A model generated the notes under the pieces. The model saw only the letters and a program-made list of their open reading frames with translations. It searched no databases and was not told the DNA's origin. A DNA stretch of 34,908 nucleotides, from positions 1 through 34,908 of the forward strand of contig CABXUA010000009.1 of assembly GCA_902515355.1 (NCBI GenBank), written 5' to 3'. Source of the DNA: an uncultured Pelagibacteraceae bacterium. Lineage in GTDB: Bacteria; Pseudomonadota; Alphaproteobacteria; Pelagibacterales; Pelagibacteraceae. Positions 1,845-24,828 of this stretch are shown here, in pieces. The position numbers and the translations under genes are program-made. Numbering within the stretch: the first letter of the stretch is position 1; every line of letters starts with the position of its first letter.

Positions 1845-2983
1845 AAAAAATATTTTATATTTCAATTTGTGTCTATTTCAGTATTTTTGGAACTTCTTTT
1901 TCAAAAAATTCAGATGAATTTTATAAAAAAATTGATTTGTTCACAGAAGTTCTTGAAAAAGTCCAAAGTGAATATGTGGACGAAATAAATCAATCAGAAG
2001 TAATGGACTCTGCCATCAATGGCGTGCTTCAATCACTAGATCCTTACTCAGCGTACATGACGCCAGAATTATTTAGAGATATGCAGACAGATACAAAAGG
2101 TGAATTTGGAGGCTTGGGTATAGAAGTAGGCATGGAAGCAGGAGTGATTAAAGTGATAGCTCCTATCGATAATACACCAGCGTCAGAGGCTGGTATTAAA
2201 GCGGGTGATTACATTGTTAAAATCGACAATGAGCAGGTTCAGGGCAAATCTTTAATGGAAGCCGTAAAATTGATGCGTGGACCAGTTGGTTCAAAAATAA
2301 ATTTAACTGTGAGACGTAAGGGCAAAAAAAAAGCTTTGGAATTTAAAATAATAAGAAAAATAATTGAGGTAAAATCTATAAATGCCAAAATAATTGACGA
2401 TAAAAAAAAGATAGCTTATTTGAAAATAAAATCATTTAATGAAAATAGTGCTAAACAGCTTTTTGAAGAAATTAAAAAATTCGAAAAAAATAAAAAACCT
2501 GTGGGATATATAATCGATTTAAGAAATAATCCTGGAGGCCTTCTCACTCAAGCCATAAGTATAACTGACTTTTTCCTTGATAGTGGCGAAATAGTCTCTA
2601 CAAAGGGAAGAAGATTAATTGAAACAAGAAAATTTTTTGCAAAAAAAGGTGATGGAGTCAATGGTAAGCCAATAATTGTTATGATCAATGGTGGATCAGC
2701 TTCCGCCTCAGAAATATTAGCTGGAGCTTTAAAAGATCACAAAAGAGCAATTATTTTAGGTGAAAATACCTACGGTAAGGGTTCCGTTCAATCAATAATA
2801 CCATTAAAAAATGGTGGAGGAATGAGACTAACTATTTCAAAATATTATCTTCCATCAGGAAAGTCTATTTCTGAAGTTGGAGTAACACCAGATATCTTTG
2901 TAGAGGAAGCTGGTGATGATTTTAAAATTAACACTAAAACTGACAATCAACTAAATTACGCTATTAATTTATTTGTATCCTAA
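1841..2983 (+). CDS. ctpA: C-terminal processing peptidase, S41 family (CtpA)
   Basis: Periplasmic serine protease that trims or degrades envelope proteins from the C-terminus. I start it at the ATG at 1841 (MKKIFYISIC), which overlaps the rsfS stop as ATGA and gives a signal-peptide-like N-terminus (two lysines, then a hydrophobic stretch to about residue 20). A longer reading from GTG 1805 would add 12 unlikely residues. From that start (380 aa): an N-terminal helical region with SLDPYSAYM (65-73), a PDZ domain about 90-160, and the peptidase core. The catalytic Ser is S288 in GGSASASE and the Lys is K313 in YGKGS; their 25-residue spacing matches the family. The M23 peptidase (EnvC-like) often found just upstream in alphaproteobacteria is absent. 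Confidence 0.95.
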   Translation: MKKIFYISICVYFSIFGTSFSKNSDEFYKKIDLFTEVLEKVQSEYVDEINQSEVMDSAINGVLQSLDPYSAYMTPELFRDMQTDTKGEFGGLGIEVGMEAGVIKVIAPIDNTPASEAGIKAGDYIVKIDNEQVQGKSLMEAVKLMRGPVGSKINLTVRRKGKKKALEFKIIRKIIEVKSINAKIIDDKKKIAYLKIKSFNENSAKQLFEEIKKFEKNKKPVGYIIDLRNNPGGLLTQAISITDFFLDSGEIVSTKGRRLIETRKFFAKKGDGVNGKPIIVMINGGSASASEILAGALKDHKRAIILGENTYGKGSVQSIIPLKNGGGMRLTISKYYLPSGKSISEVGVTPDIFVEEAGDDFKINTKTDNQLNYAINLFVS

Positions 2984-16836: not shown

Positions 16837-17997
16837 TTATTTTATAGCTTGAACTATTTTATTTGCTGCATCATTTAGGTCAGTTGCAGACAATATTTTT
16901 AATCCTGATTTCTCCAATATTTTATTTCCTTGATGAAAATTCGTGCCAGCTAATCTTACAACTAACGGAACTTTTAGATCAGTCTCTTTGGCAGCTTCTA
17001 CTACACCTTGAGCTAAAACATCACACCTCATTATTCCTCCAAAAATGTTTATTAAAATTCCTTTAACATTTTTATCTGAAAGAATTAGTTTGAAAGCAGA
17101 GGCTACTTTGTCTTTTGAGGCTCCACCACCAACATCTAAAAAATTTGCTGGTTCTTGACCGTGTAGTTTTATTATATCCATTGTTGCCATTGCTAAACCT
17201 GCACCATTTACCATACAGCCAATAGACCCATTTAATTTTATGTAAGACAAATCATATTTGCTTGCCTCTATTTCAGAAAAATTCTCCTCATTCAAATCTC
17301 TTAATTTGAGTATTTCTGGATGTCTAAATAAAGCGTTATCATCAAAGTTTATCTTAGCGTCCAAACAAATTAAATTATCACTTTTGTCTATAACTAAAGG
17401 ATTTATCTCTATTAAAGTTGCATCTTTTTCTTTTAAAATTTTGAATAATTTTTCTATTAAATCAAAAGCATTTTTTTTTTGTTTTAATTTAAGATTAAAT
17501 GGTTTAATTATTTTTTCTATTTCTTCAGAGTCTAGTTTTTCTTTAAGGTCGACTTTTACAGTCGTAATTTTTTCAGGACTATCTTTAGCGACTTTTTCTA
17601 TATCTGTTCCCCCTTCATGACTACTTATAAATGCTATTTTAGAACTTTCTCTATCTACCAGACAGGATAAGTAAAATTCTTTCTTTACTTTAGTTGCTTC
17701 TTCGATGTAAAGCCTTTTTACTTCTCTGCCCTCAGGTCCAGTTTGTTTTGTGATTAATTTTTTTCCAAGTAGTTTTTTGGACTCAGATTCAAGCTCTTCG
17801 ATATTTTTAACTAATTTCACTCCACCGGCTTTTCCTCTACCACCTGCATGTATTTGGGCTTTCAAAACATATTCTTGAGTTTTTAAAAGACCTATTTTTT
17901 CTCTAATGTCTTTTAAATCAAATATTACAATTCCATTACCTGCTGGTACCCCGTATGTTTTTAATAATTCTTTGGCTTGGTGTTCGTGAATATTCAT
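16837..17997 (-). CDS. sucC: Succinyl-CoA synthetase beta subunit (SucC)
   Basis: 386 aa ATP-grasp subunit that binds the nucleotide and succinate. MNIHEHQAKELLKTYGVP, the KAQIHAGGRGKAGGVKL block, IEINPLV and the C-terminal CMVNGAGLAMATMDI and NIFGGIMRCDVLAQG blocks are all present. It heads the sucCDAB-lpd run. In many alphaproteobacteria mdh lies immediately upstream; here a glycan cassette separates them and the upstream gene is divergent. Ten consecutive A (17471-17480 on the + strand as T) encode KKN in the middle of the gene. Confidence 0.97.
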   Translation of the reverse strand: MNIHEHQAKELLKTYGVPAGNGIVIFDLKDIREKIGLLKTQEYVLKAQIHAGGRGKAGGVKLVKNIEELESESKKLLGKKLITKQTGPEGREVKRLYIEEATKVKKEFYLSCLVDRESSKIAFISSHEGGTDIEKVAKDSPEKITTVKVDLKEKLDSEEIEKIIKPFNLKLKQKKNAFDLIEKLFKILKEKDATLIEINPLVIDKSDNLICLDAKINFDDNALFRHPEILKLRDLNEENFSEIEASKYDLSYIKLNGSIGCMVNGAGLAMATMDIIKLHGQEPANFLDVGGGASKDKVASAFKLILSDKNVKGILINIFGGIMRCDVLAQGVVEAAKETDLKVPLVVRLAGTNFHQGNKILEKSGLKILSATDLNDAANKIVQAIK

Positions 17998-18054
17998 TAT
18001 AAGATAAATTTTTTAACATAAAAAAAATTATTTTTATATAAACTTTTTAAAACT
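17998..18054. promoter_or_regulatory. Divergent spacer between sucC and the GT2 gene
   Basis: 57 nt separate the ATG of sucC (- strand) from the GTG of the glycosyltransferase (+ strand); only 4 of the 57 bases are G or C. Since the flanking genes point away from each other, both transcripts must begin here or inside the opposite gene. TATA-like boxes occur on both strands (for example TATATAAA at 18036-18043), but at this composition they are not diagnostic, so I do not assign -10 or -35 elements. Confidence 0.35.
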
Positions 18055-18924
18055 GTGCCTAAATATTTATTTTTAATCCCTTTATATAATGATTGGAGGT
18101 CATTAAATTTACTATTAAAAAAGATAAACTTAGAATTATCAAAAAAAAAACGAGTAGCAGAAATAATTATATTAAATGATGCCTCAATTTCAAAAAAAAA
18201 AATATTTAAGAAACAACTTTTTTTTTTAAAAAGAATCAAAATAATCAATCTAAAAACAAATCTTGGTAGTCAGAAAGCTATATCAATAGGGTTGAAATAT
18301 GTTTCAAATTTAAAGAAAAATTTTATCATAACAGTTATGGACTCTGATGGTGAAGACGACCCATCTAAAATAAACGAAATGATTGATTCAGCTGAAAAAA
18401 CATCTGATCATATTATTGTTTCTTCTAGGACAAAAAGGAAAGAAATCTTAATTTTTAGAATACTTTATAGAATACATTTATTTTTAACTTTTGTTCTGAC
18501 TGGAAAATGGATTTCATTTGGCAACTATAGCTCTTTTGACAGTAAAAATTTATCAAAGTTACAAAAAAATAATAGTTCATGGTTTGCTCTCTCATCTACA
18601 ATTATTAAGAATTGTAAAATAAAAAATATTTATGCAGAAAGAAAAAAAAGATTCTTTGACAGATCTAAAGTAAGTTTTTTAAGTCTTTTTTTTCACTCTT
18701 TAAGAATAGTTTCAGTTTTCCAAAAAAGAGTTCTGGTAAATTCAATTTTATATATTTTTGTGCTATTTTTTCTCAACATTATTTTAGATAACTATATATT
18801 AATTGTTCTAATATTTTCCTTAATATTTATAAATGTATCTATATTAATTGCTAAAGAGTATTTAGAGCTGGATCAGTTTGATAGAAGAATAGATTTAATT
18901 GAGAATATAGATAAAATAAAATAA
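18055..18924 (+). CDS. GT2 glycosyltransferase, polyprenyl-phosphate sugar synthase type
   Basis: 289 aa. The N-terminal GT-A domain shows a FLIPLYND strand, NDAS (41-44), the N-x-G-x3-A block TNLGSQKAISIGL (68-80) and a DxD-type motif DSDGEDDP (96-103). The region 199-220 (KRFFDRSKVSFLSL) aligns by eye with the R-x-x-x-SK-x-x-x-x-x-L segment of dolichol- or undecaprenyl-phosphate sugar synthases (DPM1, GtrB, ArnC). Two hydrophobic segments follow (about 227-244 and 247-266), as in GtrB-like enzymes. It likely loads a sugar onto a polyprenyl phosphate at the inner face of the inner membrane; the sugar is unknown. The start is GTG, with an in-frame stop 12 codons upstream and no good ribosome-binding site. 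It is the only + strand gene of the cassette. Confidence 0.78.
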   Translation: MPKYLFLIPLYNDWRSLNLLLKKINLELSKKKRVAEIIILNDASISKKKIFKKQLFFLKRIKIINLKTNLGSQKAISIGLKYVSNLKKNFIITVMDSDGEDDPSKINEMIDSAEKTSDHIIVSSRTKRKEILIFRILYRIHLFLTFVLTGKWISFGNYSSFDSKNLSKLQKNNSSWFALSSTIIKNCKIKNIYAERKKRFFDRSKVSFLSLFFHSLRIVSVFQKRVLVNSILYIFVLFFLNIILDNYILIVLIFSLIFINVSILIAKEYLELDQFDRRIDLIENIDKIK

Positions 18925-18927
18925 ATT

Positions 18928-19557
18928 CTATAAATTTTTAAACATTACACTCAAATTTTTAAAAAATCTAATTTTTTTTCCAACAAGAATAAAATTAAAA
19001 TTTTTTATATAAAAATTTATTGCTCTTTGATCGAAAGACTCAACACTCAACGTATTGAATTTTTTAGATTTATTTAAAAGTTCAATAATATTTTTTAAAA
19101 AATAAGTTCCTATTCCTTTAGATTGGAACTCATCTTTAATTGCAAGCATGTTTAAATTTAAACTTTTTTCTATTATTTTTTTATTTTTTTTTGATATGAA
19201 AATTAAATCAAATTTAGAAAATGAAAAAAATAAATTTATGATTATTTTAATTCTTAATTTTTTAATTAAATTTTTTATTATTAAAAATTTAATTCTATTG
19301 AATTCCGAAACAAATTCATTGGGTTTATCTGTTAAAATTGCATAACCAATTATCTTATCTTTTAATGAGCAAGTATAAAAAAAGATATTTTTTGAAAAAA
19401 TAGAAATTTTTAAGAATTCAATAATTGTATTTTCATCTAATGCAGATAAAATCGCAGATGAATTTTCATGTTTTATTAAATTTATTACATCTTCATATTC
19501 TTTTTTTTGTAAATTTTCCCCCCTCAATTGAATTCTTATATTTTGAAATTTTTCCAT
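18928..19557 (-). CDS. GNAT family acetyltransferase
   Basis: 209 aa. The acetyl-CoA binding motif A is clear: LNMLAIKDEFQSKGIG (135-150), with Q145-x-x-G148-x-G150, followed by a helix, then LSVESFDQRAINFYIKNF, which is the usual motif B with a late asparagine and tyrosine. The N-terminal 90 residues are diverged and there is a basic, hydrophobic insert about 90-120. The substrate cannot be read from sequence; in this setting an amino sugar made by the neighbouring aminotransferase is a plausible acceptor. It ends 3 nt from the converging GT2 gene and begins 16 nt after the membrane glycosyltransferase. The last residues repeat FKNL, encoded by two copies of AAATTTTTAAA. Confidence 0.75.
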   Translation of the reverse strand: MEKFQNIRIQLRGENLQKKEYEDVINLIKHENSSAILSALDENTIIEFLKISIFSKNIFFYTCSLKDKIIGYAILTDKPNEFVSEFNRIKFLIIKNLIKKLRIKIIINLFFSFSKFDLIFISKKNKKIIEKSLNLNMLAIKDEFQSKGIGTYFLKNIIELLNKSKKFNTLSVESFDQRAINFYIKNFNFILVGKKIRFFKNLSVMFKNL

Positions 19558-19573
19558 TATAAAAATAATTAAA

Positions 19574-21157
19574 TCATCTTAGATCTTTACAATCTTTAAT
19601 CTTTAATCTTACAAGTTCAGGTCTTATTATTTCTTTTTTAAAACAATCTTGGGATAAATAATGAGTAACATATCTACTAATTTGATCTTCTCTTACCGGA
19701 AAGCCGTAGAATAGGTAAATGTTTCTAATTTCTTTGTTTTTTAGTCTGTTAATGAACATTTTTCTGTAAATACCATAATATTTATTATTTTTATCTGGAA
19801 AACTAATTGGGTCAAAGGTTCGACTAGTCGAATTAAGATTTTTTTCAATAATCGTGTCTAAAAATAAATAATTTGTTATCAGCATTATATTATTTCCATC
19901 GTTTTCAAAGGTTTTTATGCCAAATTTGATAAGGTTTATCTCTTGAATAGGATCTTTAAAGTTTGGCGATATCCAATTTAAATTTTTTAACCTATTATCA
20001 ATAAACTGTGCTGGGACAGATTTATTAAAATTTATATTTTTTAGTTCATGAAATTTCCTATCTTCATTAAATCTTAAGTGGTATTTGCTAGTAACAAAAA
20101 CATTCAAAAGAATAATTATAGAAAAAATTATGTTTTTATTTTTTATAGATAATTTATTTAAAAAATATATCCCAAAAATAAAATTTAAAGGTATTAGGAA
20201 AAAAATAAAAGTTTGATTTTTTGTTAAAATTTGATGAAAAATTAATGATATTGAGAATAAAAAAATAATAAGCAAAATATAAAAATTATCATTTCTAAAA
20301 AAATCTGTTCTTTTTTTTAAACATTCTATAAAAAAATAAATAAATGGGATAAATGAAAGTAATATAAATTTAAAATGATTTGCTAACCCAAAAATATTTG
20401 GTCCAAGATTTATATATCTTTCAGATCCAATAGACAGGGGAAAAAGTATATACTGTTTAAAAAATAAAGAAATTTCTATACTTTGTAATATAAAAAATAT
20501 TGCTAAAATTAAAAGAAAAGATATTGATCCAAAAAAGGGGTAGATCACGAACTTCATATTTTTTTTTATGAAAGCGCATAAAATTAATACAAAAGAAATA
20601 CAAATAATAATATAAGCTGCAGGCACTTGTTTTGATAAAAATGCAAAGCCGAAAATGTAAGGCAAAAAGAAGCAATAAATCAAATTTTTTTTTAGCGCCA
20701 AAATAAAAAAGTAAATTCCAATCAAAGATAAAAAAGTTGAATGATGATCTAGAAAAGGAGTCCCACTAGATGGATAAGCGAGAATTCCAATAAAAATACA
20801 AAAAACAAAAGTAATATGTTTGTTTACATCTAATAATCTAAAAATGTAAAAAGTGAAAATGGAGATTATTGAATTCATTAATGATGAATGGATTAAGTAA
20901 CTTTGCCAATCACTATTAAAAACTTTAAAAAAAAGTGCTTGTAAATAATCTATGAAAATTCCATGAACTATAAAAAAATCTCTTACTGGTAATTCATTAT
21001 TAAGTATTCTAAAACTAGAGTCAAAATGTAAGAAAGTGTCTAGAGGAAAAACTCCTTTGTTTGCGTAATAAAAATTAATATAATAACTTATAAAAAAAAT
21101 TAAAAATAAATAAAAATTTTCTAAAAAACTATTATTTTTAATTTTATAATTAGCCAT
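19574..21157 (-). CDS. GT-C type membrane glycosyltransferase (ArnT/PMT-like)
   Basis: 527 aa with about ten or eleven hydrophobic helices up to roughly residue 365 and a polar C-terminal region of about 150 aa. The first periplasmic loop carries PLD (38-40) followed by D46, and RILNNELPVRDFF (50-62), the pattern seen after helix 1 in GT-C enzymes that take sugars from polyprenyl-phosphate carriers. I therefore call it a candidate transferase acting on the outer face of the inner membrane. The specific family is not certain; a polytopic glycan protein of another kind remains possible. It starts directly after the aminotransferase gene with no spacer. Composition is extreme (F, I, L, N, K), and no homopolymer exceeds nine nt. 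Confidence 0.62.
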   Translation of the reverse strand: MANYKIKNNSFLENFYLFLIFFISYYINFYYANKGVFPLDTFLHFDSSFRILNNELPVRDFFIVHGIFIDYLQALFFKVFNSDWQSYLIHSSLMNSIISIFTFYIFRLLDVNKHITFVFCIFIGILAYPSSGTPFLDHHSTFLSLIGIYFFILALKKNLIYCFFLPYIFGFAFLSKQVPAAYIIICISFVLILCAFIKKNMKFVIYPFFGSISFLLILAIFFILQSIEISLFFKQYILFPLSIGSERYINLGPNIFGLANHFKFILLSFIPFIYFFIECLKKRTDFFRNDNFYILLIIFLFSISLIFHQILTKNQTFIFFLIPLNFIFGIYFLNKLSIKNKNIIFSIIILLNVFVTSKYHLRFNEDRKFHELKNINFNKSVPAQFIDNRLKNLNWISPNFKDPIQEINLIKFGIKTFENDGNNIMLITNYLFLDTIIEKNLNSTSRTFDPISFPDKNNKYYGIYRKMFINRLKNKEIRNIYLFYGFPVREDQISRYVTHYLSQDCFKKEIIRPELVRLKIKDCKDLR

Positions 21158-22411
21158 TTAATTTTTATACGTATAAAATTTGGCAATCTTTTTAACAATG
21201 TAAGTCATATACTCTTCTGTTATTTTATGATGATTAGGCAAACATATTATATTTTTTTCAAATCTTTCTGCATTTTTAGATTTATTTGTACCATTTTTAA
21301 AAATCTTAGCGCAATTTTTATAATGTATCATTTTTGTTTCAATTCCATCTTTGAGTAAAAATTTGTTTAATTTATCCTTATTTTTTACAATTATTGGAAA
21401 ATCATTAAAATTTTGAAAATTATAGTCTTTAATTGGAAAAATAAAAATTTGCTTAATTTTCTCTTTTTTAAAAAGCTTACTATATAAAATATTTTTTCTT
21501 TTTCTAATCTCATGATTGTTATTCCTAGAAACTCTGTCAATTAATTGAAGATAAACCATTTTTTTCGACAAATTAGAAATTCTAGAAAAATAAAAGCTTG
21601 GAAACTTTTCTTTTTTAAATTTTAAGCTAGGGTATAATAATTTAAGTAAAATTAAATTATTATTTAAGTGAGCATACCTAACTATTTTTAAAAAGAATAA
21701 TTCATAAAAGATTTTTACAGAAAGAGACTTCAAAATAAAATATATCATGCTTTGATTAAATAAAAGTTTTTTTGGAAATTTATTAAATTTCCTAAATTCT
21801 TGATTGGAAAATTCTAAAAATTTATAGTCGTTAGTTGCTACCCCTCCACCATAAAGAGCAGAAATATTTTTCATTATATTAAAACTGTTAAGCGAATAGT
21901 CGCCAATACTCCCTGCGTAAAATTTTTTATTATTTTTTATTGAGTAATTATCAAAATATATTGCGTTATCTTCTATAAGCAATATTTTCTTTTTCTTGCA
22001 CAATTTTTTTAATATGAAAGAATCTTTGCTGGAATTGAACATGTTTGTAAGAACAATACCAAGTGTTTTTTTATTAATTTTTTTGTTTAATTCTTTGATT
22101 AAAAAAAAACCATTTTTTTTATCTATCTCAGAAAATTTAATCTTATAATTCAAGTTTTTTGCAACATTAACCATTTCAGCTAAATTATAAGGATAAAATA
22201 TTATTTCATTCTTAGATGGATGCCTTTTTTTAAGAAATTTTAAAAGCAACATAAAACCAACTCTTAATTGACTAGTTAAAATAAAATATTTTTTTTTTGT
22301 ATTTTTTTTTAATATATTTTGAATTGCTATGCTTATATTTTTTTTTGATAAAAAGAACGAAATAATATAATTTTTAATCTTAAGATAAATGTTTATTCTG
22401 AAAAAACTCAT
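21158..22411 (-). CDS. DegT/DnrJ/EryC1/StrS family PLP aminotransferase-like protein
   Basis: 417 aa, fold type I PLP enzyme. LIEDNA (145-150) aligns with the family [IL]EDxA motif whose Asp (D148) contacts the PLP ring nitrogen. GSIGDYSLNSFNIMKNISAL aligns with SxGDxxxxSFxxxKxx, putting the Schiff-base lysine at K181, followed by GGGVATND. The tail ICLPNHHKITEEYMTYIV matches the family LPxHxxLT end. Family members usually transaminate keto-sugar nucleotides. The N-terminal 45 residues are unusually basic and hydrophobic. The sequence is strongly diverged, so the substrate is unknown. It overlaps the GMC gene by 4 nt (ATGA) and abuts the GT-C gene. Confidence 0.75.
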   Translation of the reverse strand: MSFFRINIYLKIKNYIISFFLSKKNISIAIQNILKKNTKKKYFILTSQLRVGFMLLLKFLKKRHPSKNEIIFYPYNLAEMVNVAKNLNYKIKFSEIDKKNGFFLIKELNKKINKKTLGIVLTNMFNSSKDSFILKKLCKKKKILLIEDNAIYFDNYSIKNNKKFYAGSIGDYSLNSFNIMKNISALYGGGVATNDYKFLEFSNQEFRKFNKFPKKLLFNQSMIYFILKSLSVKIFYELFFLKIVRYAHLNNNLILLKLLYPSLKFKKEKFPSFYFSRISNLSKKMVYLQLIDRVSRNNNHEIRKRKNILYSKLFKKEKIKQIFIFPIKDYNFQNFNDFPIIVKNKDKLNKFLLKDGIETKMIHYKNCAKIFKNGTNKSKNAERFEKNIICLPNHHKITEEYMTYIVKKIAKFYTYKN

Positions 22412-23865
22412 TTAGATAATTTTTTTCCTATCCTTCTTGCATTAGCTATTATAACCCCGAGGGGATATTTATTTTTTTTGAAATCAATCACTGACCCATC
22501 TACAATATAAATATTTTTATTATTTCGAAGTTGACACTCTTGGTTAACTGAAAGTCTACTTTTTACTTTTTTACATTCCATAGGTATAGTTCCAAAGTAA
22601 TGGTAATCAGCACCTACACCTGGGAAAAAATTTCTAAAAATTGGAAAAATTTTATTTTGAGATAATAAAAATTTAAAAATTTTTAATTGTTTTTCCTTTA
22701 AAATTTCGAGGGTGGGTTTTTCTCTAGAATAAACCTTAAATATTTTTCTTTTATTGTCCTTGCGTATATATAGATTGCTAAAACTTGAGTCTAAAAGTAC
22801 GTTGGAGAAAATTAATCTGTCTTTTACAAGATTTATAATAAATTTTAAGGGATATAACAGCCAATTAAGTTCTATTATTGAGTTTGTTATTAATTTATTA
22901 CCTGGGCGGAAATCAGCGGAAAAACTATTTTTTTTTGATCTACTTTTAATTTGAAATAATGAGGGTGTAAATGTAAGTGGACTTTTAATTTTTTCTTTAG
23001 AAAAAAAAACTGAAATTAATCTTGGATGATGTTTAATTTTTACTTCATTGTTAATATTTAAAAACTCCATTATAATTTTTGTCGTAGCTACAGTTCCACT
23101 TCCAAAAATTACTTTGTTGGCTAAAAAATTCTTAGTGTAATTATTTTTATCTTTGCACAAAATATTGATTTTGTTTTTGTTTTTAAAAATTTTCTCTACA
23201 TAACAATTATGAAATTTAATATCTTTATTCTTTAAATATCTTTTAAAAAAAACACTTGAGGTTAACTTATTTTCCTTTTCATTAATATCGCTTAAACTAA
23301 TTTTTTTTTTTATTTTTTTTTTCTTATGAATAAAAGCTAAAATTGGTTTATTTAAGTAATAATCAGATTTTTTTAATTTATTTAAAAACGAAATTTTATA
23401 AGGTATCTCATAATCATTATCATATTTAAATTTTTTACCTAATGTAATTTTTCCAATGAGTTTATTTTTTTTCAAAAATTCAAAAAAAGCTTTTTTTATA
23501 TCCTCAGCTGTTTTTTTTTTTAAATATGAAATATCTTCACTAATTTCTGAGTCCAATTGTAATCCCCAATAATTAGAAAGTCCGCCAAACTCAAGGCTTC
23601 CTAGTAATTTACAATTTTGGTCTATAGAAAATTTATTAGAAAAATAGTAATTTTTTGCTTTTGTAAAACTTTTTCCCATCTGAGTTGGTAAAAATTTAAT
23701 TGCATGATTGTTTCTCTCTTCGCTCTTGGACAAGTCTAAAGAAAAATCAGGCGATATAACATGAATTTTTCTTTTTTTTGATAAGTAAGCTTCAATAAAA
23801 TTCAGGCTTGCTAAACCGCTTCCAATAACTACTACATCAAGTCTTTCCGTTTCTATTGCTGACAT
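22408..23865 (-). CDS. GMC-type FAD oxidoreductase
   Basis: 485 aa. The N-terminal FAD-binding site DVVVIGSGLASLNFIEAYL has GSG at 15-17, and LEFGGLSNYWG resembles the GMC GGxSxxW segment. The C-terminus has the GMC pattern YHYFGTIPM with H422, IYIVDGSV (D456) and then YPLGVIIANARRIG. The second catalytic position, Asn or His before Pro in known GMC enzymes, is Tyr467 here. It probably oxidises an alcohol, likely of a sugar in this context. The gene begins 6 nt after mdh and overlaps the DegT gene by ATGA, suggesting sequential use of the two proteins. Three A tracts of 10-11 nt lie inside it (23301-23311, 23313-23322, 23511-23521). Confidence 0.74.
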   Translation of the reverse strand: MSAIETERLDVVVIGSGLASLNFIEAYLSKKRKIHVISPDFSLDLSKSEERNNHAIKFLPTQMGKSFTKAKNYYFSNKFSIDQNCKLLGSLEFGGLSNYWGLQLDSEISEDISYLKKKTAEDIKKAFFEFLKKNKLIGKITLGKKFKYDNDYEIPYKISFLNKLKKSDYYLNKPILAFIHKKKKIKKKISLSDINEKENKLTSSVFFKRYLKNKDIKFHNCYVEKIFKNKNKINILCKDKNNYTKNFLANKVIFGSGTVATTKIIMEFLNINNEVKIKHHPRLISVFFSKEKIKSPLTFTPSLFQIKSRSKKNSFSADFRPGNKLITNSIIELNWLLYPLKFIINLVKDRLIFSNVLLDSSFSNLYIRKDNKRKIFKVYSREKPTLEILKEKQLKIFKFLLSQNKIFPIFRNFFPGVGADYHYFGTIPMECKKVKSRLSVNQECQLRNNKNIYIVDGSVIDFKKNKYPLGVIIANARRIGKKLSK

Positions 23866-23871
23866 CTAGAA

Positions 23872-24828
23872 TTATAAGTTTTTATCGATTTTTTTGGCAG
23901 CTAGAAAAAGTTCTCTTACTGCATGAATTGATTTATCAAATTGTTTTTTTTCCAATTCTGACAATCTTAATTCTATAACTTTTTCCACTCCATTTTTTCC
24001 TATTTGTACTGGAACCCCGGCATATAAATCTTTTACTCCATACTCTCCATTTAAATATGTAGCACACGGAAGATGTTTTTTTAAATCTTTCAAATAGCTC
24101 TCTGCCATTTCTACGCCTGAGGCCGCAGGAGCATAAAAAGCTGAGCCTTTTTCCAAATATTTTACTATTTCTGCTCCACCTTTTTTTGTTCTTTCTATTA
24201 TTTCATCTATTTTCTCTTTTTTAATTTTTCCACTCTTAACGAATTCAGCAAGCGGTTTTTCATCAATGAATGTTTTGTCAATCATGGCAACCATGGTATC
24301 GCCGTGACCTCCAAGTACTAAAGATTTAATACTAGAAACTGGAACTTTGATCTCTTGGGACAAAAAGTATTTGAATCTAGAAGAATCTAAAATTCCTGCC
24401 ATGCCCACTACCTTATTTTTTGGAAGTCCTGAATATTTTTGTAGAGCCATAACAATAACATCTAATGGATTTGTTATGCATATTACAAAGGCGTCTGGAG
24501 AACTCTTTTTTATGCCGTTGGCTACATCTTTAATAATTTTGAGATTTATACCTAATAAATCATCTCTGCTCATACCAGGTTTTCTAGGAACTCCAGCAGT
24601 TATTATTATGACGTCAGAATTTTTTGTATCCTCGTAATTGCTAGTTCCGATCAAATTTACATTAAAACCATCAATAGGAGAAGACTGAGCAATATCCAAT
24701 GCTTTGCCTTTTGCAAACCCTTCAACTACATCAAATAAGACTACGTCGCCTAATTCTTTAATTGCGATTAGGTGTGCCAATGTTCCTCCAATTTGACCGG
24801 CTCCAATTAAACTTATTTTTTTATTCAT
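23872..24828 (-). CDS. mdh: Malate dehydrogenase (Mdh)
   Basis: 318 aa, LDH-like malate dehydrogenase of the alphaproteobacterial type. It interconverts malate and oxaloacetate with NAD. The Rossmann motif GAGQIGG is at 9-15, and D33 fits an NAD-specific site. The substrate loop is [10 protein letters not shown] with R82 and R88; D148, R151 and the proton-relay H175 in LGGHGD are all present. Arg82 at the specificity position supports malate over lactate. It lies 6 nt from mmsA upstream and 6 nt from the GMC gene downstream, so the cassette may be transcribed with it. Confidence 0.96.

Follow-up and report, generated by a model that had tools for sequence, protein, structure and literature searches.

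A gene cassette between mdh and sucC

The window (the whole stretch of 34,908 nucleotides that was analysed) contains an insert of 5,874 bp in the gap between sucC and mdh (17998..23871). The site is bounded on the left, which is the upstream side for transcription, by mdh (23872..24828, minus strand; Pfam Ldh_1_N/C), and on the right by sucC (16837..17997, minus strand; ATP-grasp_2 and Ligase_CoA). These two genes flank the site in all genomes. An earlier note on this DNA had claimed five open reading frames between mdh and the suc genes, and we found its coordinates to be exactly right. GT2 (18055..18924, plus strand; Pfam Glycos_transf_2, 54 bits) resembles polyprenyl-phosphate glycosyltransferases of the GtrB/ArnC type; it begins with GTG and is divergent from sucC, 57 bp away. 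The other four genes are on the minus strand and encode a predicted GNAT N-acyltransferase (18928..19557; Pfam Acetyltransf_1, 32.1 bits), a GT-C membrane glycosyltransferase (GTC_A; 19574..21157), a DegT-family PLP aminotransferase with an insertion (21158..22411), and a predicted GMC-fold flavin oxidoreductase (22408..23865).

The insert is 21.5% GC, compared to ~32% for the flanking DNA; values range over 19-23% within the cassette and 30-36% in the flanks. Lysine, isoleucine, asparagine and phenylalanine together make up 42-52% of residues in the cassette proteins versus 21-32% in the flanking proteins, in line with the earlier note, which had called the cassette proteins far richer in these residues than the neighboring TCA genes. 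We found no terminator in the island, and promoter-like sites were no more common than in shuffled sequence.

The mdh-sucC gap is a genus-wide hotspot of variable content

We compared single-cell genomes of Pelagibacteraceae from one SAR11 genus, plus sister genera and the sister family. The single-cell genomes are 55-98% complete, so absences at the level of the genome are soft. We found 96 complete mdh-sucC intervals in the genus. Four were empty, with 3-14 bp including the mdh stop codon, and 92 were filled, with 0.9-8.5 kb in 34 different gene orders. The gap was also empty in the sister genera and sister family, where only a few bases separate the two genes; contiguity of mdh and sucC, taken as background in the earlier note, thus holds. 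The 34 filled architectures are mixes of glycosyltransferases, methyltransferases, oxidoreductases and aminotransferases. GTC_A, which diverges fast, was present in 91 of the 92 filled intervals, and the remaining modules occupied preferred slots around it. That is, GTC_A is the near-constant core of the site. The slot used by GMC-DegT in some genomes holds a non-homologous oxidase and a class III aminotransferase in two others (G162 and G192), and a pair resembling DprE1/DprE2, an FAD oxidase (FAD_binding_4) with an SDR, in another (G032).

These intervals support a variable glycan island at a fixed housekeeping site, as had been proposed. They do not support the five genes as one fixed module: GTC_A is nearly constant, GMC and DegT form a linked pair that is also found elsewhere, and GNAT is exchangeable. 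GC shifts at both edges of the insert could also be produced if a foreign contig had been joined to the TCA operon in assembly or binning. However, the same junctions, a median of 4 bp from mdh, were present in more than 90 independent single-cell assemblies, and we reject an artefact as practically inconceivable.

Cassettes are exchanged between species

We compared the relatedness of the insert genes to that of the flanks. The identities of mdh and sucC correlated with each other across the insert (r 0.67). In contrast, GTC_A, GT2, GTC_B, GMC and DegT were uncorrelated with the flanks (|r| ≤0.13, none significant). For example, G058 and G059 have sucC genes that are 97% identical, whereas their GTC_A sequences are just 31% identical and their gene content is different. 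The insert was uncoupled from flank relatedness among species that are too distant for SNP peaks at the boundaries to show. Because most insert genes ignore flank relatedness while mdh and sucC follow each other, we conclude that cassettes are exchanged between species.

A rival reading is that these are genes of a core operon that are inherited vertically and are just fast-evolving and AT-rich; a GTC_A gene is indeed found in almost all members of the genus. However, there are empty sites within the genus, content is patchy (7 changes needed on the flank tree for GMC, 23 for GT2 and 18 for GTC_B), and GTC_A is uncorrelated with the flanks. Based on the patchy distribution and the lack of flank correlation, we rejected vertical core inheritance, which now seems very improbable. 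We also checked for the outcome that had been set beforehand as counting against an accessory island, the same five genes everywhere with a core-like phylogeny, and did not see it.

Some insert genes do travel together. The relatedness of GMC followed that of DegT (r 0.91, p 0.001); that of GNAT was not correlated with either GMC or DegT in the 6 genomes compared. Sequence similarity correlated with the other modules present for GTC_A (r 0.33) and GT2 (r 0.52), compared to 0.09 for mdh and -0.01 for sucC. Joint transfer of neighboring genes can partly account for the correlation seen with GTC_A. A scan of IMG/VR with the GMC profile gave no viral relatives of GMC, so carriage by phage is unsupported.

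GTC_A has a GT-C fold and GT2 often occurs without GMC

GTC_A scored 26.8 bits to Pfam PMT_2, barely over the cut-off of 26.1. Its predicted structure (pLDDT 91) has the GT-C fold. The best match was to PMT (Z 19.6), with others to OST and ArnT (Z 16.5), and all 50 matches listed belonged to the GT-C superfamily or its GPI-transamidase relatives. After helix 1, D40 is nearly invariant and D60 is invariant among 36 homologues; these are candidates for the catalytic acidic residue of the first extracytoplasmic loop.

The best matches of the GT2 family profile were sll0501/GtrB (1e-22) and ArnC (1.6e-15). The motif DSDGED is invariant, and D96, D98 and D101, which include the DxD, are conserved throughout. 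Judged by this sequence similarity, GT2 probably makes a polyprenyl-phosphate sugar. The earlier note had GT2 loading the amino sugar. Of the 37 intervals with GT2, 30 have no GMC, and 3 of the 10 GMC intervals have no GT2. Thus, GT2 is not specifically the loader for the products of GMC, DegT and GNAT.

Identity of GMC and DegT

GT2, GNAT, GTC_A (as PMT_2) and DegT were recognized by Pfam as the earlier note had anticipated, but GMC_oxred_C scored 15.5 bits, under the curated cut-off of 24.6, so by sequence GMC was filed as GMC-fold only. The assignment is settled by the predicted fold: the model (pLDDT 76, pTM 0.84) aligned to GMC enzymes, including pyranose 2-oxidase and fructose dehydrogenase, with a VIA-align Z of ~24 over residues 4-485. 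The protein has an invariant GSGLS motif and a GMC fold with a Rossmann FAD-binding N terminus. H422 and N465 are invariant in 7 GMC homologues and are at the places expected for the catalytic pair by sequence position rather than superposition. From the modeled fold, GMC is likely a sugar alcohol oxidase or dehydrogenase. The GMC profile matched none of the PDB sequences, and the fold search was needed for identification. Homologues in the genome contigs were not found with a single-sequence scan and were found with an alignment. Among the other 336 Alphaproteobacteria genomes sampled there were just weak partial matches, in 6 genomes.

DegT is a clear member of its family (Pfam PF01041, 81.8 bits versus a cut-off of 19.8). 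K181 (the PLP lysine) and D148 are invariant and align with those of sugar aminotransferases, and the catalytic-lysine motif SFNIMKN is invariant. All 7 cassette DegTs contain a hydrophobic/basic, lysine-rich insertion of ~62 residues (residues ~203-264), and the most hydrophobic stretch of the protein is within it. In contrast, 16 ordinary SAR11 DegTs used as controls have 16-33 residues at this site, and their hydrophobic maximum is in the fold core.

GMC and DegT are linked and occur with putative N-acyl enzymes

GMC and DegT were together in 10 of 10 GMC intervals (p 9e-14), and GMC adjoined DegT at 23 of the 24 GMC loci with a visible neighbor. Among 101 genomes, the close DegT subfamily and GMC were present in one identical set of 7. 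The GNAT family was found in 12 of 169 genomes, all 12 of them GMC carriers. X12, a formyltransferase-like protein unrelated to GNAT, was found in 5 of 169 genomes, again all GMC carriers, and never with GNAT. X12 has no Pfam match; its best structural relatives by sequence are the sugar N-formyltransferases WlaRD, Rv3404c and PseJ, with weak matches (E 0.001). One genome (G178) has GMC and DegT in a fully assembled interval that contains a methyltransferase and neither GNAT nor X12. In another (G108), GNAT is missing at the mdh site and present at a second GMC locus.

The earlier note had suggested a test for co-occurrence of the five families and had proposed that GMC, DegT and GNAT oxidize, aminate and acylate a sugar. 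GMC and DegT are linked and GNAT is found only with GMC; GT2 is not confined to genomes with these three. The restriction of GNAT to GMC carriers and its replacement by X12 give independent support to a sequence of oxidation, amination and N-acylation, followed by transfer by the GT-C enzyme.

A model for the cassette

We think it fairly likely that the mdh-sucC gap is a replacement-type variable glycan island with a GT-C output step and, in this genome, amino-sugar tailoring. Cassettes would be exchanged through the conserved flanks. GTC_A would be the fixed output step: on the outer side of the inner membrane, it would take a sugar off its polyprenyl-phosphate carrier and attach it to a surface glycan, lipid or protein. 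The other cassette genes would tailor the sugar that it adds. The GMC flavoenzyme would convert a sugar hydroxyl to a carbonyl, DegT would aminate that carbonyl, GNAT would acetylate the resulting amine, and GT2 would make the polyprenyl-phosphate sugar. GMC, DegT and GNAT together probably build an unusual amino sugar of the cell surface. Weighing against the model are the Pfam score of GMC, which is under the cut-off, the lack of PDB matches to its profile, the weak formyltransferase match of X12, and the gene content of G178 and G108.

It is possible, with a lower probability, that GT2 first attaches an unmodified sugar to polyprenyl phosphate, that GMC, DegT and GNAT then modify this lipid-linked sugar at the membrane, and that the GT-C enzyme uses the product. 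The DegT insertion, absent from the ordinary DegTs, is a hint of modification on a membrane carrier. A hydrophobic-basic segment is also present in GNAT (8/8) and X12 (4/4), and DprE1/DprE2, which the pair in G032 resembles, act on decaprenyl-phosphate ribose. However, the hydrophobic segments are under transmembrane level (Kyte-Doolittle 1.5-2.3) and might be ordinary helices of an AT-rich genome, GMC has no clear segment of this type, some GMC intervals have no GT2, and nucleotide sugars are the usual route for oxidation and amination. More speculatively still, a membrane-tethered line of GMC, DegT and GNAT or X12 might make N-acylated amino sugars directly on polyprenyl phosphate and, being carried in a cassette that species can swap, diversify the SAR11 surface.

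The GMC-DegT pair is also found at other chromosomal sites, and at two of these (L105 and L112) it is beside a different GT-C family; the pair is thus not restricted to a single transferase. This would fit if the cassette modified a small acceptor or a lipid head group and made no donor sugar, with GMC, DegT and GNAT acting in the cytoplasm on an assembled glycan or lipid intermediate and the GT-C enzyme adding an unrelated sugar. Aminoglycoside enzymes do the same chemistry on an assembled pseudodisaccharide (PMC5461906). Against this, the GTC_A sequences that accompany GMC resemble one another more than expected (0.39 versus 0.34, p 0.004). Such similarity points to a shared substrate, but joint transfer is another way to explain it. 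We consider action on such an acceptor rather unlikely. The model that we prefer remains tailoring of the sugar that GTC_A transfers.

SAR11, the most abundant bacteria in the ocean, have extremely streamlined cells, and the surface variability known for them is attributed to the O-chain island located at the rRNA genes. If our model is true, a second, genus-wide, mix-and-match sugar cassette is a separate source of surface diversity. The cassette is short enough for single cells and long reads to cover it completely. It would therefore be useful for studying the origin of surface variation, its spread between species and its effect on attachment of phage. In addition, the linkage of GMC and DegT, with alternative N-acyl enzymes, is a testable prediction of a new amino-sugar route.

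Comparison with known systems

We found no description of the mdh-sucC island in the parts of the searched literature that we could consult, SAR11 papers included. The cassette appears to be a variant, at a site without a description in that literature, of a known type, the replacement flexible genomic islands for exposed glycans (Lopez-Perez et al. 2014, PMC4033161). Like those islands, it has a fixed position, here with empty and alternative forms, and gene sets that differ between relatives and are assigned a similar function in surface glycans. No integrase was seen, and the flanks are conserved as expected for homologous recombination. Unlike them, it is very small (0.9-8.5 kb) and is within a TCA-cycle operon. 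It also consists of a near-constant GT-C gene and accessory modules in slot-like positions, where those islands have clusters that are wholly different.

HVR2, the O-chain cluster of SAR11, occupies ~48 kb between the 23S and 5S rRNA genes (PMC2217521; PMC11898729). Both regions are hypervariable and contain cell-surface sugar genes between conserved core genes. In contrast to HVR2, the cassette is at mdh-sucC, is a few kb, and is without O-antigen polymerase or nucleotide-sugar epimerases; there are no rRNA genes in the window.

The Und-P-Ara4N pathway (ArnA/B/C/D/T) shares a DegT-type aminotransferase, an ArnC-like GT2 and an ArnT-like GT-C enzyme with the cassette, and the N-formyl step of ArnA is parallel to the N-acyl step, with GNAT replacing formylation in this window. 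However, the cassette has a GMC-fold flavoenzyme in place of the NAD-dependent oxidative decarboxylase of ArnA, and neither the bifunctional ArnA dehydrogenase/formyltransferase nor the ArnD deformylase is in the cassette.

Pairs for aminoglycoside C6' (KanQ/KanB, GenQ/GenB1, and AprQ) provide a precedent for the proposed reactions, in that they also combine a flavin or other dehydrogenase (FAD-dependent for AprQ) with a PLP aminotransferase that then acts on the sugar alcohol (PMC5461906). They differ in acting on soluble antibiotic precursors, and in the cassette the aminotransferase partner is of the DegT family. DprE1/DprE2 similarly couple flavin oxidation to a second enzyme and provide a lipid-linked sugar for GT-C enzymes, but they are not homologues of GMC and DegT, and they epimerize rather than aminate.

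A fixed insertion site between mdh and sucC

The window corresponds to contig C9 in a SAR11 genome of 765,861 bases and 28 contigs. Its five open reading frames between sucC (16837-17997) and mdh (23872-24828) lie exactly where the earlier note placed them, in an insert of 5,874 bp with about 21.5% GC, between flanks of 30-36% GC. We located mdh and sucC first in 101 relatives and later in the 169 available genomes of the window's genus; for 99 intervals the full length was measurable. Three genomes from two other genera of the family have only 8 bp between the genes, counting the stop codon, and in the sister family they likewise nearly touch. Within the window's genus, 4 of the 96 complete intervals were empty (3, 9, 9 and 14 bp) and 92 were filled with 0.9 to 8.5 kb of DNA, 98% of it coding. 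The junctions of filled intervals were tight, with median gaps of 4 bp on the mdh side and 41 bp on the sucC side. The gap is therefore a fixed site of insertion and not an isolated island or an accident of assembly.

One genome, G101, has a normal filled interval and also a second, almost adjacent mdh-sucC pair (contig C12, 6405-8526) that is only 67-71% identical to that of the window. This pair is likely on a contaminant contig.

Variable content and exchange between genomes

We found 34 non-empty architectures of the interval. The gene for the cassette's GT-C membrane glycosyltransferase (family GTC_A) was present in 91 of the 92 filled intervals and, among the 101 relatives, was confined to the window's genus; its median identity was 35%, compared to 82% for mdh. 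It was mostly preceded by methyltransferases (families MT11, MT23 and MT31) or by GMC and DegT, and followed by a GNAT or an FkbM methyltransferase. On the opposite strand came GT2 and then a second GT-C (GTC_B) with an 86-residue protein. This small protein (L091:2903-3160 and 26 intervals) has one N-terminal hydrophobic stretch and occurred only together with GTC_B (26/26). In rare forms, a FAD_binding_4 oxidase occupied the first slot, paired with a class III aminotransferase in G162 and G192 and, beside GTC_A in G032, with a short-chain dehydrogenase (L098:2811-4838). The latter pair resembles DprE1/DprE2 and, by analogy, could be a sign that SAR11 has a polyprenyl-phosphate pentose.

We compared relatedness of flanks and inserts across 92 genomes, which are too far apart to show SNP peaks at the boundaries. 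Identities of mdh and sucC correlated (r 0.67) despite the insert between them. GTC_A was uncorrelated with either flank (r 0.02, -0.04), as were GT2, GTC_B, GMC and DegT; MT11 and FkbM correlated moderately. The flank tree required 7 changes for GMC, 18 for GTC_B and 23 for GT2. Genomes G058 and G059 have SucC proteins that are 97% identical, GTC_A proteins that are only 31% identical, and different modules. The earlier note had proposed a strain-variable glycan island at a housekeeping locus, to be abandoned if the same five genes recurred at this place in all relatives with core-like phylogeny. Comparison across the genus and its relatives bore out the proposal: the site is fixed, and its content is patchy and, for GTC_A, GT2, GMC and DegT, uncoupled from the flanks.

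The encoded proteins

The family assignments made from the sequence were largely recovered with profiles: GT2, GNAT, PMT_2 and DegT exceeded Pfam cut-offs, and GMC fell below. A GMC model built from seven sequences (pLDDT 76) aligned over its full length, at Z about 24, with the sugar-oxidising enzymes pyranose 2-oxidase, C-glycoside oxidase and fructose dehydrogenase, and this predicted fold confirmed the GMC identity. The GT-C model (pLDDT 91) matched GT-C enzymes, including PMT (Z 19.6), oligosaccharyltransferases and ArnT (Z 16.5). GtrB (sll0501) and ArnC were nearest to the GT2 family profile. Elsewhere in the window, an Rfam match to RF02800 (Rickettsia sRNA47; 64.2 bits; 2519-2831, minus strand) is antisense to a ctpA-like peptidase gene and probably reflects conserved protein-coding sequence.

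GMC and DegT are paired, with alternative candidate N-acyl enzymes

GMC and DegT occurred together in 10 of 10 intervals, never one alone (p 9e-14). The relatives with the GMC protein are all single-cell genomes of uncultured Pelagibacteraceae. The named ones, which overlap partly with the numbered genomes of the genus, gave 28 GMC loci; DegT adjoined GMC at 23 of the 24 with a visible neighbour, at mdh-sucC and other sites. The sole exception, L115, comes from AG-325-E13, where DegT does accompany GMC at a second locus, L123. The two loci are incomplete and complementary, one with GMC and GNAT and no DegT, the other with GMC and DegT and no GNAT. The close DegT subfamily and GMC had identical distributions (the same 7 of 101 genomes), and divergence of one protein parallels that of the other (r 0.91).

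The GNAT family was present in 12 of 169 genomes (p 8.5e-13) and the formyltransferase-like family X12 in 5 of 169 (p 2.4e-5), every one a GMC carrier. No genome had both (mutual exclusion among 22 GMC carriers, p 0.0096). X12 retains the formyltransferase motifs N-x-H and D-x-G, and its best PDB profile matches were sugar N-formyltransferases, albeit weak (E 0.001). Five GMC carriers had neither enzyme: in G017, G157, G177 and G205 the contig breaks off close to GMC, and in G178 the block includes a methyltransferase. If GMC and DegT make an amine, then two unrelated N-acyl enzymes substituting for one another beside the same pair would be expected. The pattern supports the steps first suggested for the trio of GMC, DegT and GNAT: oxidation, amination and acylation.

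The five genes are not the single fixed module envisaged in the earlier note. GMC-DegT are paired and GNAT is restricted to GMC genomes; GTC_A is nearly universal in filled intervals, and GT2, assigned earlier to the trio's route, is not tied to it, as 30 of the 37 intervals with GT2 lacked GMC.

A proposed pathway

In the pathway that we favour, GMC would oxidise a sugar hydroxyl, DegT would aminate the oxidised sugar, GNAT would acetylate the product, and GT-C would move it from a polyprenyl-phosphate donor to a surface molecule. A flavin or other dehydrogenase acting on sugars with an aminotransferase is established in aminoglycoside pathways (PMC5461906). The set of modules in an interval is tracked by the sequences of GTC_A (r 0.33) and GT2 (0.52) to a much greater degree than by the adjacent mdh (0.09) or sucC (-0.01). 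This tracking fits substrate matching; joint transfer of neighbours would give the same sign.

A lysine-rich, hydrophobic insertion of 61-62 residues is present in all 7 cassette DegTs, at about residues 203-264. In 16 ordinary DegTs, taken from these genomes or from sister genomes, the corresponding stretch is 16-33 residues long. Hydrophobic-basic stretches also occur in GNAT and X12, and in all three proteins the hydrophobic stretches are below transmembrane strength. Judged from sequence, they suggest membrane contact, and hence that the substrate might be a lipid-linked sugar.

Related gene sets at other sites

A second variable sugar-gene island lies between the pyruvate kinase and GAPDH genes (L247:224-8900 in G054; also L248, L249 and L250). 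In G044, G052, G054 and G057, all without the window-type GMC, it holds GTC_B, GT2, a more distant DegT that bears an insertion, and a flavoprotein-like protein of 306 residues with no Pfam family. In G054 it also encodes a clear formyltransferase (PF00551, 53 bits). The 306-residue protein shares the motifs GSGxS and GGNxNIWGG with the GMC family. Because the profile comparison of the two was marginal, this island supports, and does not prove, an independent recurrence of a trio-type gene set.

At two further loci (L112:536-5308 and L115:9382-12991), GNAT-GMC(-DegT) with another GT-C family lies by fumC and a mazG-like gene; with fumC, another gene of central metabolism adjoins a sugar cassette. 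In G021, a GT2-GMC-DegT-GNAT-methyltransferase-GT-C block (L105:5399-12825) lies between rlmB-like and NAD-kinase-like genes; the mdh-sucC site of that genome holds MT11 and GTC_A, not this block.

Relation to known islands

Surface variability of SAR11 has been placed in HVR2, the O-chain island between the 23S and 5S genes (PMC2217521; PMC11898729). We found no mention of mdh-sucC as a variable island in the SAR11 literature searched. The island is new relative to that literature, which excluded subscription papers and preprints. We regard the mdh-sucC cassette as a small, modular replacement island in a TCA operon that carries a probable, new amino-sugar module. Its inserts behave like replacement flexible genomic islands, for which transfer through homologous recombination in the flanking sequences has been suggested (PMC4033161).
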